From positions 1-20,261 of IMG/VR virus record IMGVR_UViG_3300025869_002573: a stretch of 20,261 nt of DNA; one strand, written 5' to 3'. The translations under genes were made by a program, and so were the position numbers. Positions 3,587-18,798 of the stretch are shown in pieces. Under the pieces are notes generated by a model. The model was not told the origin of the DNA. It did no database searches and saw only the letters and a list, made by a program, of their open reading frames with translations. Each line of letters starts with the position of its first letter. Positions within the stretch are counted from its first letter, which is position 1. Source of the stretch: a virus.

Positions 3587-4342
3587 TTATTCCTCTAAAA
3601 AACTTTTTAAGTTTTCAATTATTGTTATGCCAGATAGTCTGGCTTTTTCGGTTTTTGCAGTTTCTATACCACTTTCATTAACTAAATGTGTTACGTCTTT
3701 TGTAACACTAGTCTTTACTTCAAAGCCTGCGGCTTTTAAACAAGTTGTAGCATCTGCTTTTGTTTTAAAACTCTTCAGTTTTCCACTTATACATACAATT
3801 CCAGCCTGAGAGCTCTGCGGTGATTTATTAAACTTTAAGCTAAAAGGCAAAGAGCCCTCTAGCGTTGGGTAAAATACCTCATCTAACCATGTTGTTAGAC
3901 TCTCAGTAGATTTTGGGCCAAGTCCTGCCTCAGTGCAGCTTTGCTCATTGATTTCATATATAGTATCACATACTGAGCTTAGTTTTTCACTTGCGGTCTT
4001 ACCAATTAGAGGGATACTGAACCCCGCTAAAACTGTATTCAATGGTGCATTTTTTGAGTTTTCTATCTCTGCAAATAATTTAGATCCTAGTTTATCGGAA
4101 TCGAGTCCTACACATAATTCTTCTTCCGTGAAGCTGTAGATTTCGTCAACTCCTCTAATATCTAATCTTTTGATTGCTGCCGGGCCTAATCCTTTAATTT
4201 TTAAAGTTTTAGCAAAGTGTTCTACTTTCTTGCTCGATTGTGAAGCACAATCAGAATTACGGCAATAGAGTAAAGGGCTGAGCCATTCAAGAATACTATT
4301 GCAGCTAGGGCAATGTTGTGGTCTTGTAATCTGGGTCAGCAA
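3587..4342 (-). CDS. NAD-dependent DNA ligase, C-terminal subunit (Zn finger, HhH, BRCT)
   Basis: A 251-aa protein equal to the back half of bacterial LigA. It opens with a Cys4 zinc finger (C11, C14, C27, C32), continues with helix-hairpin-helix repeats (IKGLGPAAIKRL, LIGKTASEKLSS, GLGPKSTESL) and ends in a BRCT domain (about 175-251, with GIVCISGKLKSF and VTHLVNESG). Together with the adenylating subunit encoded upstream it should seal nicks using NAD+. The start is TTG, chosen because the zinc finger begins 11 residues later and a GAGAG site precedes it. It has its own promoter at 4370-4398, so the split is a stable two-gene arrangement rather than a fresh frameshift. Confidence 0.9.
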   Translation of the reverse strand: MLTQITRPQHCPSCNSILEWLSPLLYCRNSDCASQSSKKVEHFAKTLKIKGLGPAAIKRLDIRGVDEIYSFTEEELCVGLDSDKLGSKLFAEIENSKNAPLNTVLAGFSIPLIGKTASEKLSSVCDTIYEINEQSCTEAGLGPKSTESLTTWLDEVFYPTLEGSLPFSLKFNKSPQSSQAGIVCISGKLKSFKTKADATTCLKAAGFEVKTSVTKDVTHLVNESGIETAKTEKARLSGITIIENLKSFLEE

Positions 4343-4369
4343 TTTAGTTCTCTCAGAAAATGAAAATAT

Positions 4370-4398
4370 ATTATACGAAAATTTTGGGTTTTTGTCAA
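4370..4398 (-). promoter_or_regulatory. Phage promoter P2 for ligase B, HTH protein and helicase
   Basis: Minus strand: TTGACA at 4393-4398, 17-nt spacer, TATAAT at 4370-4375, with AAAATAATTC against the -35 box. It lies in the 83-nt gap between the two ligase genes. Confidence 0.9.
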
Positions 4399-4425
4399 GA
4401 ATTATTTTTTACAAGGTCTTAGGAA

Positions 4426-5346
4426 TCATACACGCCTTAAAATACGAGGTATAATTTCGCCACTACGAATAACCTCTACATTACAGCCTATCTCTAATTC
4501 CAGAGCATTTATATATTCCATATTATGCAAGGTGGCCCTCGAAACAACAGCGTCTCCAATTTTAATTGGATTTAGTATCGCTACAGGACTAACAACCCCT
4601 GATTTGCCTACCTGCCAAGTCACATCCAATAATGTAGTGACTATACCTTTTTGCTGTTGTTTGAGAGCAAAAGCGCCTCTAGGATGATGTGAGGTGTAAC
4701 CCGCATTATTAAATAGATAATTACTATCTAACCTAAAGACTTCTCCATCAGTAGGGTACTCTGACACATTAAAAGTTGTTACAACATTAAAGCCTTGAGA
4801 TTCAAGATAAGCTAACCCTTCAGTGAAGTAAGAAAACATATCTTGTTCAGACTGTAACCCGTAAGCAACAAATGTCAGAGGCCTACTTAGGAACTCGCTT
4901 TCGTCCTTGAGATTCAAGGAACCGGAAGCAAGATTTCTTGCGTTAGAGATATTTGAAGGACAAACAACTTCTCCAGTTACTTGAATAATATTCTTACTAT
5001 CCAAAGTATTGGGAGCGAGGTGCTTAACCTTATCTGTAATATCTCTGCCCAACTTTCCGTCACCCCTTGTAAGTCCCAGAACAAGCTCACCACCAACGTA
5101 TAGTAACGAGACAGCGGCTCCATCTAACTTTGGAGTACGGACGTATTTTTCTAAGTCAGAATATACTGACAAATCAAATACTTTCTGTAAGGAGTACATT
5201 TGAAACCAGTGTGCAGTGCCGTCAGTTACCGTATGACCGACGTCAGTATTTCCATACTTTAACGATAGAATATCAAATTCAGCGTCCGAAATAATCGGAT
5301 TGCCTGTATAGTAACACTCATTACATTGTGCAAGAAATTCTTTCAC
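4426..5346 (-). CDS. NAD-dependent DNA ligase, adenylation/OB subunit
   Basis: A 306-aa protein equal to the front half of bacterial LigA. Residues 10-30 are a shortened Ia domain that keeps the DAEFD block (D21, D25) contacting NMN. The adenylation domain carries the nucleotide-accepting lysine in KLDG (K73), then LTRGDGKLGRDIT (92-104), GEVV, and RNLASGSL. The loop between GEVV and RNLASGSL is shorter than in E. coli LigA. The OB fold ends with WQVGKSGVVSPVA and VSRATLHN, then IRSGEIIPRI. The chain stops exactly where the zinc finger would begin; that part is the next gene. It starts with GTG behind GAGAG, the same leader element as the ligase B gene. It is the only gene between promoters P3 and P2. 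Confidence 0.92.
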   Translation of the reverse strand: MKEFLAQCNECYYTGNPIISDAEFDILSLKYGNTDVGHTVTDGTAHWFQMYSLQKVFDLSVYSDLEKYVRTPKLDGAAVSLLYVGGELVLGLTRGDGKLGRDITDKVKHLAPNTLDSKNIIQVTGEVVCPSNISNARNLASGSLNLKDESEFLSRPLTFVAYGLQSEQDMFSYFTEGLAYLESQGFNVVTTFNVSEYPTDGEVFRLDSNYLFNNAGYTSHHPRGAFALKQQQKGIVTTLLDVTWQVGKSGVVSPVAILNPIKIGDAVVSRATLHNMEYINALELEIGCNVEVIRSGEIIPRILRRV

Positions 5347-6121: not shown

Positions 6122-6568
6122 TTAGCTGTTTACGTTAGAGATAATGCCAGCAAAGTACATTGCTGCTTTACCCGTAAGTTTACTGATAATCTCTTCATCT
6201 ACTTCTTGGCCTGCGTCTGTAAGAGCCGCCGAGAGGCTTTCAATAGCTGCTGCTTTTGAAACTCGGCTACTACCACCGTTGCTGCCAGAAGATTTGGTTG
6301 CGCCAGTCGCAGGAGCCTTTTTTACATATACACCTGCTTTTGTCAGAATCATACGTACACCGTTTGGTGACTCATTAAGTTCTTCTGCGATCTCTTTTAC
6401 AATTTCCATTGAATTTTCAGGAGAAGGATCAGACTCAGTATACATACTTACTGCTTCTGCCTTCTTGTCATCATCCCATGCCATGCGTCTTGTCCTTTTA
6501 GGTTTGCCATAATACCCTGGGCATGTACCCAGGAACTCTAGTTGTTGTCGGTAGAATCGGTCGCCCAT
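6122..6568 (-). CDS. HTH-containing phage protein, 148 aa
   Basis: First gene of the P4 unit, with GAGGA close before the ATG. Residues about 30-75 form a helix-turn-helix (MAWDDDKKAEAVSMY, then EIAEELNESPNGVRMILTKA), similar to the fourth unit of the multi-HTH protein at 2852-3583. A glycine/serine/alanine linker (TGATKSSGSNGGSS) separates it from a helical C-terminal part (ESLSAALTDAGQEVDEEIIS). It probably binds DNA; whether it is a regulator, replication factor or structural protein cannot be read from the sequence. Confidence 0.72.
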   Translation of the reverse strand: MGDRFYRQQLEFLGTCPGYYGKPKRTRRMAWDDDKKAEAVSMYTESDPSPENSMEIVKEIAEELNESPNGVRMILTKAGVYVKKAPATGATKSSGSNGGSSRVSKAAAIESLSAALTDAGQEVDEEIISKLTGKAAMYFAGIISNVNS

Positions 6569-6592
6569 TGCTTCCTCAATTTTTGAAATACT

Positions 6593-6621
6593 ATTATAAT
6601 AAATAAATAAATATTTGTCAA
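6593..6621 (-). promoter_or_regulatory. Phage promoter P4 for the HTH/PC4 unit
   Basis: Minus strand: TTGACA at 6616-6621, 17-nt spacer made of ATTT repeats, TATAAT at 6593-6598. The block AAAATAATTC abuts the -35 box. Confidence 0.9.
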
Positions 6622-6641
6622 GAATTATTTTTCCAAAGGAG

Positions 6642-6704
6642 GTATTTTCCTTTTAAATTAGCTGCTTTTTCTAGTAGGGAAAAGCTACTTAGCAGGAAAA
6701 ATAC
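6642..6704 (-). terminator. Long imperfect inverted repeat at the end of the ThyX unit
   Basis: GTATTTTCC (6642-6650) pairs with GGAAAAATAC (6695-6704) with one bulge. Shorter inner pairs (CTGCT/AGCAG, AGTAG/CTACT) give a long imperfect stem. It fills the space between the stop of the 62-aa gene and promoter P4, where a transcript end is expected. There is no clear U-run, so the terminator call is tentative. Confidence 0.4.
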
Positions 6705-6708
6705 AATA

Positions 6709-6897
6709 CTAGTCTTTAGTAGCTTCGACATTAAGAGCTTGAAGGATTTCGATCCACTCTTCGTCTGATAACTTACGACTATTAAAATGTCCCGGAGCTT
6801 TTGTATCAGCTTCGTCTTCACCTTCTCTACCTCTATCTTCATTGCCATCTGCATTTAACTCTGTTTGTGCTCTTTGCCACGCTCTATAATCTCTCAT
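6709..6897 (-). CDS. Small acidic hypothetical protein, 62 aa
   Basis: A 62-aa very polar protein: the middle is rich in D, E, R and G (NEDRGREGEDEAD), the end is a short helix (LSDEEWIEILQALN). Its ATG overlaps the stop of the 232-aa gene by ATGA. A longer reading in another frame at 6618-6854 lacks such coupling and is less likely. No family is recognised. It is the last gene of its unit, before the inverted repeat and promoter P4. Confidence 0.65.
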   Translation of the reverse strand: MRDYRAWQRAQTELNADGNEDRGREGEDEADTKAPGHFNSRKLSDEEWIEILQALNVEATKD

Positions 6898-7592
6898 AGT
6901 TTAGTTAAATCCACACCATACTCTTTTAAATGTTCCAAGCTACCTAACTCACAAGCTAGAGAATACCCATTGAAACCTCCGGTAGAGGTTCCTATAAAAA
7001 ATTCTTGCACTTCCTGTTTGATCTCTTGAAATACATAAATTGCATAGCACTTAGAGAAGTATTTCTTCTCGTAGTTAGTATCGTTATATCCTTCTTTTTC
7101 TGCTTGATAATCCACACTTATTTCATCTTTTATGATTGCGGGTGCTTGATATTTAGCAGACCATACTCTTTGTCCTGTATAGAAAGTTTCAGCAACGCAT
7201 TCATCCGGGAGGTAGCAATAAGTAGACTTATCTACTTGAGGTACTCCAGCTTTTGTAATTATAGATTTTACAAAACCAGTAGACCTATATAAACTTTTTG
7301 CTATAGTTGATATGTTGTCTCCCTGTAGATACTCCGTTATTACTTGTTGTATCTCACCACGCGTTGCTGCCTTTCCCTTGTTCTGAGCTTTCCTTCTAGA
7401 AACAAATTCTAGTGTGTCTTTAAAGTCATCAATAATCTTACTAAGTCTAGTAGTATTATATGCGATATTTAAAATAGAACATGCTTCTTTTTTTGATATA
7501 GGTTTAATTTCATCTTCGAGAAGCGATATAACATGCCTTATATTAGACGACGAAAGTTTTTCATAATCTCTTCTCTTAATTCCTCTTACCAT
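6894..7592 (-). CDS. Conserved phage protein with HTH segment, 232 aa
   Basis: A 232-aa protein with AAGGAG 6 nt before its ATG. The N-terminal part is basic (MVRGIKRRDYEKL). Residues about 75-117 read as a helix-turn-helix (ATRGEIQQVITEYLQGDNIS, then TIAKSLYRSTGFVKSIITKA), like the resolvase or homing-endonuclease type. The C-terminal part (CYAIYVFQEIKQEVQEF, TGGFNGYSLACELGSLEHL) looks like a small globular domain that I associate with unnamed conserved proteins of marine phages. DNA binding is likely; a catalytic role is not visible. Confidence 0.75.
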   Translation of the reverse strand: MVRGIKRRDYEKLSSSNIRHVISLLEDEIKPISKKEACSILNIAYNTTRLSKIIDDFKDTLEFVSRRKAQNKGKAATRGEIQQVITEYLQGDNISTIAKSLYRSTGFVKSIITKAGVPQVDKSTYCYLPDECVAETFYTGQRVWSAKYQAPAIIKDEISVDYQAEKEGYNDTNYEKKYFSKCYAIYVFQEIKQEVQEFFIGTSTGGFNGYSLACELGSLEHLKEYGVDLTKL

Positions 7593-13926: not shown

Positions 13927-14109
13927 TTAAGCTTTTTCACAGTCTGGTAGTCTATCTTGAGGCGCAATTAAAAAATCAATCTGCCCACAAGAAATACGAG
14001 CATTATGTTTTTCAATACATTTTCCACAAACAGTACCAATTTTATTCACTAAAAAGGGTTCTTCTAAAAGATCTTTCTCCGATATAGCATTACAAATACA
14101 AAGGTACAC
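13927..14109 (-). CDS. Bfd-like [2Fe-2S] protein
   Basis: A 60-aa protein with the cysteine pattern of bacterioferritin-associated ferredoxin: MYLCICNAIS (C4, C6) and GTVCGKC (C28, C31), spaced to hold one [2Fe-2S] cluster in a helix-turn-helix fold. Bfd reduces bacterioferritin to release iron; a phage copy could free host iron or act as a redox or scaffold module. The C-terminal 25 residues differ from the bacterial family. It starts with GTG in a TAGTG overlap with the 48-aa gene. Confidence 0.8.
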   Translation of the reverse strand: MYLCICNAISEKDLLEEPFLVNKIGTVCGKCIEKHNARISCGQIDFLIAPQDRLPDCEKA

Positions 14110-14351: not shown

Positions 14352-14390
14352 AAAAAAACCTCGATCACCACTAAAGTAGTGTATCGAGGT
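14352..14390 (-). terminator. Rho-independent terminator (leftward)
   Basis: An 8-bp stem ACCTCGAT (14358-14365) / ATCGAGGT (14383-14390) with a further inner 5-bp stem CACTA/TAGTG. In the minus-strand direction it is followed by seven T residues (A-run at 14352-14358). It closes the short unit that starts at P7. Confidence 0.9.
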
Positions 14391-14420: not shown

Positions 14421-14576
14421 CTACCGTTTCTTTTGGATATAGTAGTTCCTGCATTCTTGATGAGATTCTGCGATTCCGTCAAGGACTTCCTGCGCACATT
14501 TTTCATCAAGTCTTCGGTTGCCGTCTTTTACAAGTACAGCTCCAATTAACAACATTGCAATTACCATTCCTGGCAT
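14421..14576 (-). CDS. 51-aa membrane peptide under a long leader
   Basis: A 51-aa protein (MPGMVIAMLLIGAVLV at the start), with one hydrophobic N-terminal helix and a polar, cysteine-containing rest (DEKCAQEVLDGIAESHQECR). AAAGGAG lies 5 nt before the ATG. It is the only clear gene between P7 and the terminator at 14352, after about 400 nt of structured leader. It has no lipobox. It could be a membrane-acting early peptide such as a superinfection or host-takeover factor, but this is inference. Confidence 0.7.
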   Translation of the reverse strand: MPGMVIAMLLIGAVLVKDGNRRLDEKCAQEVLDGIAESHQECRNYYIQKKR

Positions 14577-14590
14577 TTGTTCTCCTTTTT

Positions 14591-14981
14591 ATGGTGAAGT
14601 GACTACCTACCTACTTTCACTTCGACGTGTCCCTCACGAGATGGCTATAGGACACCCCTGATGGGGGACTGTGGTTATGGTCTGAATAAGTCCCTCCACT
14701 GTAGTTAAACACCCATAACAATATCTAGTAATTTTCGTGTGTTTAACTTTTTTGCTCTGTTTACCTTTTTCGTCATGATAGTAGTAGCTACGGAGGACGG
14801 ATACTGCCTTAACGAACGAGTATCTGAACGGCTGGGTACTTTGGCGTCCCAGCTGACCCCTTCCACTTAGCCAGAGGAAGGAAATATGGAGAAATTGGAG
14901 CTTCGGCCGAGTGATTTCTTTCACCGAGATCTTTACTGCCTTATCACTATAAATTGTGTCTCTGGCTTCTCTCAATTTCTG
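14591..14981 (-). ncRNA. Structured 400-nt leader or noncoding RNA
   Basis: The stretch from the predicted P7 start to the 51-aa gene holds no convincing gene and is richer in G+C than its surroundings. Inverted repeats include GCTGGG/CCCAGC (14831-14836 / 14848-14853), CCCC/GGGG (14655-14658 / 14663-14666), GTGTCC/GGACAC (14627-14632 / 14650-14655) and GAAGTGA/TCACTTC (14596-14602 / 14617-14623). The last three stand in a row just before the ribosome binding site. A 113-aa open frame (14634-14975) starts with TTG without a ribosome binding site and uses more GC-ending codons than neighbours, so I treat it as the less likely reading. Confidence 0.5.
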
Positions 14982-14987
14982 AATACT

Positions 14988-15016
14988 ATTTTACAGAAGA
15001 AAGCAACTAAAGTCAA
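14988..15016 (-). promoter_or_regulatory. Phage promoter P7 for the structured leader unit
   Basis: Minus strand: TTGACT at 15011-15016, 17-nt spacer, TAAAAT at 14988-14993, with AAAATAATTC against the -35 box. It points away from P8, whose -35 box begins 40 nt to the right. Confidence 0.82.
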
Positions 15017-15055
15017 GAATTATTTTTTAAACGGTGGTGGGTAAAAAAATAAAAC

Positions 15056-15084
15056 TTGACTTAAACCTACTTTTATCGTATAAT
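15056..15084 (+). promoter_or_regulatory. Phage promoter P8 for the plus-strand operon, predicted leaderless start
   Basis: Plus strand: TTGACT at 15056-15061, 17-nt spacer, TATAAT at 15079-15084. An A-rich block (AAAAAAATAAAAC) precedes it but lacks the TARTTC core. Six bases separate the -10 box from the ATG at 15091. Confidence 0.88.
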
Positions 15085-17264: not shown

Positions 17265-17650
17265 TGTTAAGTGGAACTAACTTTGAACTAGTTGGTGATT
17301 TTATGGAGGCTTTTGGACAGGAGGTACGTTTAGAACCTAGCTGGCCAGACTTCTCAACTAGAGAACTAAGAGTGGATTTAATCGAAGAAGAACTGGAAGA
17401 GCTAAAAATAGCTATTGCTAATAAAGACCAAGTGGAGGTAGCAGATGCGCTTACTGACTTATTATATGTTATTTACGGAGCAGGTCACGCCTTTGGTCTT
17501 GATCTTGATGCTTGCTTTACAGAAGTTCATGCAAGTAATATGAGTAAACTCGATGAGAACGGAGTCCCTATTTACCGTGAAGATGGAAAAGTACTTAAAG
17601 GGCCTAACTTTTTTGCCCCTGACTTAAGGAAAGCTCTGTGGCTGGATTAG
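17252..17650 (+). CDS. MazG/PRA-PH-like nucleotide pyrophosphohydrolase, 132 aa
   Basis: A 132-aa all-alpha pyrophosphohydrolase. Metal-binding residues are in LIEEELEELKIAI (E46, E47, E50) and DALTDLLY (D65, D69). The C-terminal block SNMSKLDENGVPIYREDGK, then KGPNFFAPDL, is typical of the phage phosphoribosyl-ATP-pyrophosphatase-like group. The likely role is to hydrolyse NTPs or dNTPs during infection. The start used is the ATG at 17252, with GGAG 8 nt upstream; the ATG at 17264, in a TAATG overlap with the dehydratase stop, is an alternative. It is a second, different MazG-type protein from the one at 10351-10599. Confidence 0.85.
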   Translation: MVDVMLSGTNFELVGDFMEAFGQEVRLEPSWPDFSTRELRVDLIEEELEELKIAIANKDQVEVADALTDLLYVIYGAGHAFGLDLDACFTEVHASNMSKLDENGVPIYREDGKVLKGPNFFAPDLRKALWLD

Positions 17651-18798
17651 AAGCTTATGTGGTTGGATATGGATCAATAGATACTCTTGGAAATAATCCT
17701 TGGTCCAGTTTCCAAAAAACTTTAGATAATGTAGACTATAAGACATGGTTTGATGATCTTGGCCTCATGGCTTATCCTGTTGACGATGATACTATAGTAT
17801 ACCCTAGCGGATGGAAGCCCCGAAACAACAGTCGTGCGCAGAAATTTTTCATGCACGCAACCAATCTTGCCTTGGAGCACTCAACCCTTCCCATTGTTCC
17901 TAATGTTGCTGTTATTCTTTCTTCTACTCTTTCTGAAGGCGAACTCAATGAGGAAAACTTTCCAAAAAGAGCTGCAGGAAAAAGAATTCCTCTCCGAAGT
18001 CTTGTAAATACTATTACTGATATGTGCACCTATCATGTGTGTAATCACTGGGGATTTCATGGGTTATCCACTTCTGTGGCTGCTGCTTGTGCTACTGGAT
18101 TAGTAGGAATTGATTATGCCATGCGCATCTTGCACAAATATGACTATGTAATAGTCGGAGGTGCTGACGCGGGTATTTATAAAACTACTCTGGAAGGCTT
18201 TGATAGTATAGGAGCGCTGTCTTCGGATAATAGTCCTTTCGATGATAATAGATCAGGTTTTGTAATGGGAGAGGGCGCTGGAGTTGTAATACTTCAAAGT
18301 AAGGAGAATGTAGATAAATTTAATAGCAAACCTGTTGCTAAATTATATGAGCCGGGTCATGCTACCGAAGGATTAAGTTTAACAAGCCCAGCAGAGGACG
18401 GCAGAGGAGCTACTCAAGCAATGAGGCAAGCTTTAGAAAACTCTCCTGTAAGTATGGTAGATAGTATTTGTTGTCATGCAACCTCTACCTCTATAGGGGA
18501 TATAACGGAGTATAAAGCAATAGATAGGGTACATTCTAATAATCCTATTCTATGGGCTCCCAAAAGTAAACTAGGGCATACTGTGGCCGCATCTGGGATA
18601 CTCGAAACTATTCATCTTTTTGAAGCGTTTAGAGCCCGTATGATTCCTCATATACAAAACTTAGATAAATGTTCTTTTGATAAAAGAAATCTTCTTGCAT
18701 ATAGCAATCGAGGTATTGGATCTGACAACAACTGGGCTATGAATAATTCTTTTGGTTTTGGAGGTAAGAATATGTCTCAAGTAATAGAACTATATTAG
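17638..18798 (+). CDS. FabF-like beta-ketoacyl synthase
   Basis: A 386-aa condensing enzyme of the thiolase fold that would join an acyl chain to malonyl-ACP. The active site is intact: nucleophile C151 in VAAACATGLVGI, H280 in CCHATSTSIGD (FabF: HGTST), K311 and H314 in KSKLGHTVAASG. GFVMGEGAGVVIL (208-220) and the C-terminal NNSFGFGGKN oxyanion/dimer loop are also present. It is about 25 residues shorter than bacterial FabF. It starts with GTG in the end of the MazG-like gene, with AAGGA upstream. No acyl carrier protein or other fatty-acid gene is in the window, so host ACP would be needed. The role may be in changing host lipids or in building an acylated sugar. Confidence 0.92.
   Translation: MAGLEAYVVGYGSIDTLGNNPWSSFQKTLDNVDYKTWFDDLGLMAYPVDDDTIVYPSGWKPRNNSRAQKFFMHATNLALEHSTLPIVPNVAVILSSTLSEGELNEENFPKRAAGKRIPLRSLVNTITDMCTYHVCNHWGFHGLSTSVAAACATGLVGIDYAMRILHKYDYVIVGGADAGIYKTTLEGFDSIGALSSDNSPFDDNRSGFVMGEGAGVVILQSKENVDKFNSKPVAKLYEPGHATEGLSLTSPAEDGRGATQAMRQALENSPVSMVDSICCHATSTSIGDITEYKAIDRVHSNNPILWAPKSKLGHTVAASGILETIHLFEAFRARMIPHIQNLDKCSFDKRNLLAYSNRGIGSDNNWAMNNSFGFGGKNMSQVIELY

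Follow-up and report, generated by a model that had tools for sequence, protein, structure and literature searches.

The window analysed here, a 20,261-nt stretch of viral DNA, contains a region of about 400 nt (14,591–14,981) that raises the question of whether it encodes a protein, a leader that senses a signal, or an RNA that functions in its own right. A conserved structured RNA was found to occupy the minus strand of this region (14,981–14,591). Judged by sequence comparison, it belongs to a previously undescribed, strongly conserved RNA family, whose host phages are uncultured, mostly marine and distantly related to the T5 group. The RNA was not described in the open-access sources searched, a scope outside of which most subscription journals lie.

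The GC content of the region was 45.0% compared with 38.1% window-wide, a value reached by only 3.7% of 391-nt windows, and several inverted repeats lie within it. The promoter of the RNA, TTGACT-N17-TAAAAT (14988–15016, minus strand), is of the type found ahead of most relatives, and its extended context, AAAATAATTCTTGAC, recurs at other window promoters; the probable start of transcription is near 14980. The same transcript carries a 51-aa membrane peptide with an AAGGAG-type ribosome binding site (14421–14576, minus strand), and the unit closes with an intrinsic terminator consisting of a strong hairpin and a T-run (14352–14389, minus strand). Given a start near 14980, the unit and its leader match those drawn in the first-pass annotation, which had placed a GC-richer, hairpin-rich leader of some 400 nt between a promoter and a 51-aa peptide with a strong terminator; all of these elements were located on the minus strand. 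Folding of the single sequence was modestly better than chance for the minus strand (z = −2.0; 2/100 shuffles), with z = −1.2 for the plus strand. Since such energies are only mildly unusual and by themselves no proof, comparative evidence was needed.

A long inverted repeat at 15010–15062 holds two divergent promoters, one on the minus strand for the RNA and one on the plus strand for the next genes, each with A/T tracts upstream. A perfect TTGACA-17-TATAAT is present at five window promoters (1406, 4398, 6621, 10339, 14329; minus strand), which have similar upstream contexts and form an unusually uniform set.

A DNA search of relatives returned the region at 70% identity in one record, and two others shared a conserved block of 28 nt. 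Sequence patterns and then covariance models for finding members were developed from these matches, a covariance-model search having also been proposed in the first-pass annotation. The 5' domain of the RNA was detected in 37 viral contigs besides the window (29 records with E values of 3e-17 to 5e-26, plus 8 more), and covariation was found in both of its domains. Because several of these records are near-identical, the independent lineages are fewer than 37; 28 distinct 5' domains were parsed. G001, a record of 35 kb, represents almost the same virus as the window. The window DnaB helicase has many relatives at 63–91% identity in viral contigs, but only about 31% identity to its counterparts in isolated T5-group phages. 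The order of a D5-like gene, helicase and primase recalls T5, and the same order occurs in two Vibrio phages. The NAD-dependent ligase of T5 is split, and an NAD-dependent DNA ligase of the window, named by eye, is likewise apparently divided over two frames (3587–5346). The isolated T5-like phages pVp-1 and VCPH gave no match to the RNA better than E 0.8, and DNA similarity searches of phage GenBank records returned no homologue. Eleven exact pattern matches in cellular genomes were rejected, all of them lying in unrelated contexts that resembled chance.

The conserved 5' domain (14887–14982, minus strand) is about 95 nt long and takes the form of a three-way junction of helices P1, P2 and P3 with a pseudoknot. 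It contains long invariant stretches, including GAAGCCANNGAC and GAUAAGGCAGUAAAGAU. Across the 16 distinct sequences aligned (L115 having been entered with its tandem repeats shortened), GAAGCCA, GAC and GAUAAGGCAGUAAAGAU are invariant, as is GATAAGGCAGTAAAGAT (14929–14945), which makes up the 3' side of P2 and the strand joining it to P3. All helices lie on the minus strand. P1 pairs GAAATTGAGAG (14969–14979) with CTCCAATTTC (14891–14900). Within 14938–14966, P2 consists of an invariant GCC (14966–14964) and GGC (14940–14938), and P2b of CAC (14958–14956) and GTG (14947–14945), which covaries. P3 (within 14903–14927) pairs TCGG (14927–14924) with CCGA (14906–14903), and the pseudoknot joins CTC of the P3 loop (14911–14909) to GAG (14962–14960).

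Over P1, P2, P3 and the pseudoknot, 98.3% of cells were paired, with double-sided changes in 12 of 18 pairs (0/500 shuffles), and pairing fell to 25–50% when the partners were shifted by one to three columns. RNAalifold, supplied with no structure, recovered the same 15 nested pairs, i.e. all except the pseudoknot. Six members found after the structure had been fixed retained P1 (5/5) and P3 (4/4), among them the new P1 pairings GGAGG/CCTCC and TCAGG/CCTGA; P2b was present at 3/3 in four of the six and at 2/3 in two. The pseudoknot is the weakest and least certain helix: variation is confined to two of its three pairs, and a lenient swap control, the script for which mis-parsed four members, found a complement in 69% of the foreign loops. 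Tandem copies of a 17-nt unit, TTTTGTACTTGATACAG, lie within the P2 loop of L115, L116 and L124 (about three, four and five, respectively). As the copy number differs among otherwise near-identical phages, this loop tolerates rapid expansion.

The 3' domain (14591–14749, minus strand) is composed of a hairpin with AAAATTACTA..ATTGTTATG (14748–14703) followed by helices P5 (14699–14661), P6 (14655–14627) and P7 (14623–14596, with the loop AAGUAGGUAGGUAG). Here 96.5% of cells were paired, with double changes in 14 of 20 pairs (0/500 shuffles). The window copies of the 5' and 3' domains scored 88.8 bits (model R1) and 110.4 bits (model R2), values that are expected by construction because both copies sit in the build sets of the models; the weight therefore rests on the covariation counts. 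This domain of about 150 nt is common to the window, L124 and its relatives, L117/L122/L127/L131 and L112/L120/L123/L134. Its model also matched L187, a further phage (9.6e-19), and L193 (4e-12), with weaker matches in L128/L129/L137–L140 (about 1e-5). The 3' domain is thus recognisable in part of the family only, so that it either evolves fast or gets replaced, and a single shared function of the whole RNA is left unsupported. Three further pattern matches to a stand-alone 3' domain elsewhere scored with neither model. L113 has a hairpin resembling that of the 3' domain, but placed upstream of its 5' domain (E 0.005), an arrangement only hinted at in L119, L121 and L126 (E above 1). In L193, each domain has a transcript of its own: first comes the 5' domain together with a peptide, next a tRNA-Trp gene, and last an RNA that contains the 3' domain and has its own promoter.

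A protein reading of the same region deserves consideration, since a frame of 113 aa at 14975–14634 is open in the window and gave a weak PHROG match (E 0.045). Its TTG start, however, falls inside P1 and is not preceded by a ribosome binding site, no Pfam match was obtained, and a protein search found the same virus as its only relative. The region is conserved along base pairs rather than codons. In the homologous region of L124 (70% identical DNA), stops interrupt all three frames, which rules the protein out; we give its existence virtually no credence. The doubt voiced in the first-pass annotation was well placed, and of the protein homologues that it had named as grounds for abandoning an RNA reading, none appeared beyond the same virus.

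In most lineages, a promoter is followed by the RNA, an intrinsic terminator and then a gene under its own promoter. P1 and the T-run of the terminator lie about 130–650 nt apart, and the shortest forms (L130, L135) have little beyond the 5' domain ahead of the terminator. No conserved ORF was found between RNA and terminator in most lineages (L112, L117, L118, L128, L130, L132, L133, L136 and others). With its own promoter and terminator, no conserved ORF within it and a next gene that is promoted separately, the RNA is usually a stand-alone transcript and not a leader. Some lineages, namely the window, the L115/L116/L124 clade, L119/L121/L126 and L193, do place a small membrane peptide, equipped with a ribosome binding site, after the RNA or its 5' domain. 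In L119, L121, L126 and L193 it comes directly after the 5' domain. The 51-aa peptide of the window resembles the 50-aa peptide of other clades (relatives in L115, L116, L119, L121, L124 and L126) and was for this reason taken as a real gene.

Several other genes of these phages drew attention. In L112–L140, the RNA terminator is often followed by a small protein of about 105–130 aa that has its own promoter and an FP motif at the N-terminal end (e.g. MAQIIQFPERK); its PHROG matches were weak. At 13927–14109, the window encodes a small cysteine-containing protein with a weak resemblance to a BFD-like [2Fe-2S] domain (E 0.007); other phages have relatives of this protein next to their RNA and tmRNA, e.g. 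downstream of the RNA in L119/L121. A beta-ketoacyl synthase-like frame (FabF type) at 17638–18798, unusual as phage cargo and named by eye, lies beside an epimerase-like frame.

A permuted tmRNA was present in 15 RNA-bearing records (about half), in every case on the strand of the RNA and no more than 1.43 kb away; it lies upstream of the RNA in nine of them and downstream of it in the other six. ARAGORN additionally detected a tmRNA in L187 and L224. A tRNA-Trp gene adjoins the RNA in nine contigs and a tRNA-Met gene in one. As the records are not independent, no formal probability can be attached to this association, and no tRNA or tmRNA gene was detected in the window or G001. The 8.5-kb contig L115 contains two tmRNA genes (579–877 and 6532–6902) with different tags, ANDEVYDLAIAA and ANDDIYSLAA, both of which also match the permuted tmRNA family. 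The tRNA/tmRNA neighbourhood suggests a possible role of the RNA in translation during infection.

Such a setting invites comparison with known phage RNAs. GOLLD is a large structured phage RNA that frequently neighbours tRNA genes and combines a conserved part with a variable one, and ROOL is a structured phage RNA near tRNA islands (PMC12286853); neither has an assigned function. The new RNA shares with GOLLD the phage tRNA-island niche, with tRNA-Trp, tRNA-Cys or tRNA-Met and tmRNA beside it in several relatives, as well as the division into a conserved and a variable half. It differs in that its conserved part is the 5' one, in being shorter, at about 130–650 nt, while many GOLLD members exceed 800 nt, and in adjoining a permuted tmRNA. 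The resemblance to ROOL lies in being structured and near tRNA islands, whereas the helices and invariant sequences are others. Searches of Rfam at the gathering threshold (window and eight relatives) gave no GOLLD or ROOL match; at E≤3, there was no match in L112 or L117 and nothing relevant for the window. The permuted tmRNA (RF04321, RF01849) is a stable RNA that many of these phages encode nearby and on the same strand, but it is a separate gene, and the two models matched this neighbour and never the new RNA. The idea that the core mimics E. coli ribosomal RNA was also considered, but the similarity did not rise above that of shuffles. On the Rfam, sequence and structure comparisons run here, the new RNA fills the GOLLD/ROOL niche yet is a distinct family.

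We consider it reasonably probable that this phage RNA family, with its own promoter and usually its own terminator, represents a stable trans-acting RNA of the GOLLD/ROOL sort. This reading is favoured by the conserved core, by a promoter and terminator dedicated to the RNA and by the absence of any constant gene downstream; the terminator present in most lineages makes action in trans most likely. Transcribed from a strong sigma-70-type promoter of its own, the RNA would adopt a nearly invariant 5' domain, in which P1 closes a three-way junction and the pseudoknot docks P2 and P3, followed by a larger, faster-evolving 3' domain. We infer that it would be abundant and would work in trans during infection, its 5' domain being the putative contact surface for a partner that, from the neighbouring genes alone, may belong to host translation or RNA machinery; in the window, the 51-aa membrane peptide shares the transcript. 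The regulatory RNA with a small coding end envisaged by the first-pass annotation holds up in the main, the RNA being conserved and covarying and the 113-aa frame not conserved. Its signal-sensing leader finds no support across the family, in most lineages of which the RNA has its own terminator and a separately promoted next gene, and may still apply in the few peptide-bearing lineages, the window included.

That leader is the main rival, and a rather unlikely one, in the form of a riboswitch-like 5' domain that controls the downstream membrane peptide, with the peptide-less lineages having lost it. The compact, pseudoknotted junction with its many invariant bases does look like a riboswitch-type aptamer with docked arms, and the peptide follows in the lineages named above. 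However, a conserved gene directly downstream is confined to these peptide-bearing lineages, a constant expression platform is lacking, most lineages have no conserved gene before the terminator and a separately promoted gene after it, and in the window the 3' domain places 300 nt between 5' domain and peptide. Less probable still is an RNA-only multimerising assembly of the ROOL/GOLLD sort, unrelated in sequence: by analogy, the tRNA-island niche, the pairing of a conserved with a variable half as in GOLLD (PMC12286853) and the length of about 130–650 nt with several hairpins would fit it, but neither Rfam family matches in sequence or structure, and L130 and L135 possess little besides the 5' domain. 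Between these two in likelihood is a two-domain RNA machine, the parts of which could be separately transcribed and reordered, assemble in trans and act with the phage permuted tmRNA and tRNAs on host ribosomes; the L193 form split around tRNA-Trp, with a promoter of its own for the 3' domain, and the upstream hairpin of L113 (weakly that of L119, L121 and L126) hint at it.

To the large structured RNAs known from phage tRNA islands, GOLLD and ROOL among them, this adds a further family with its own invariant core and a defined neighbourhood of permuted tmRNA and tRNA-Trp. Its minimal forms (L130, L135), its split form (L193) and the peptide coupling of some lineages are natural variants that point to the essential part and so make the family directly testable. 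For annotators of marine viromes, it provides a concrete RNA to look for.
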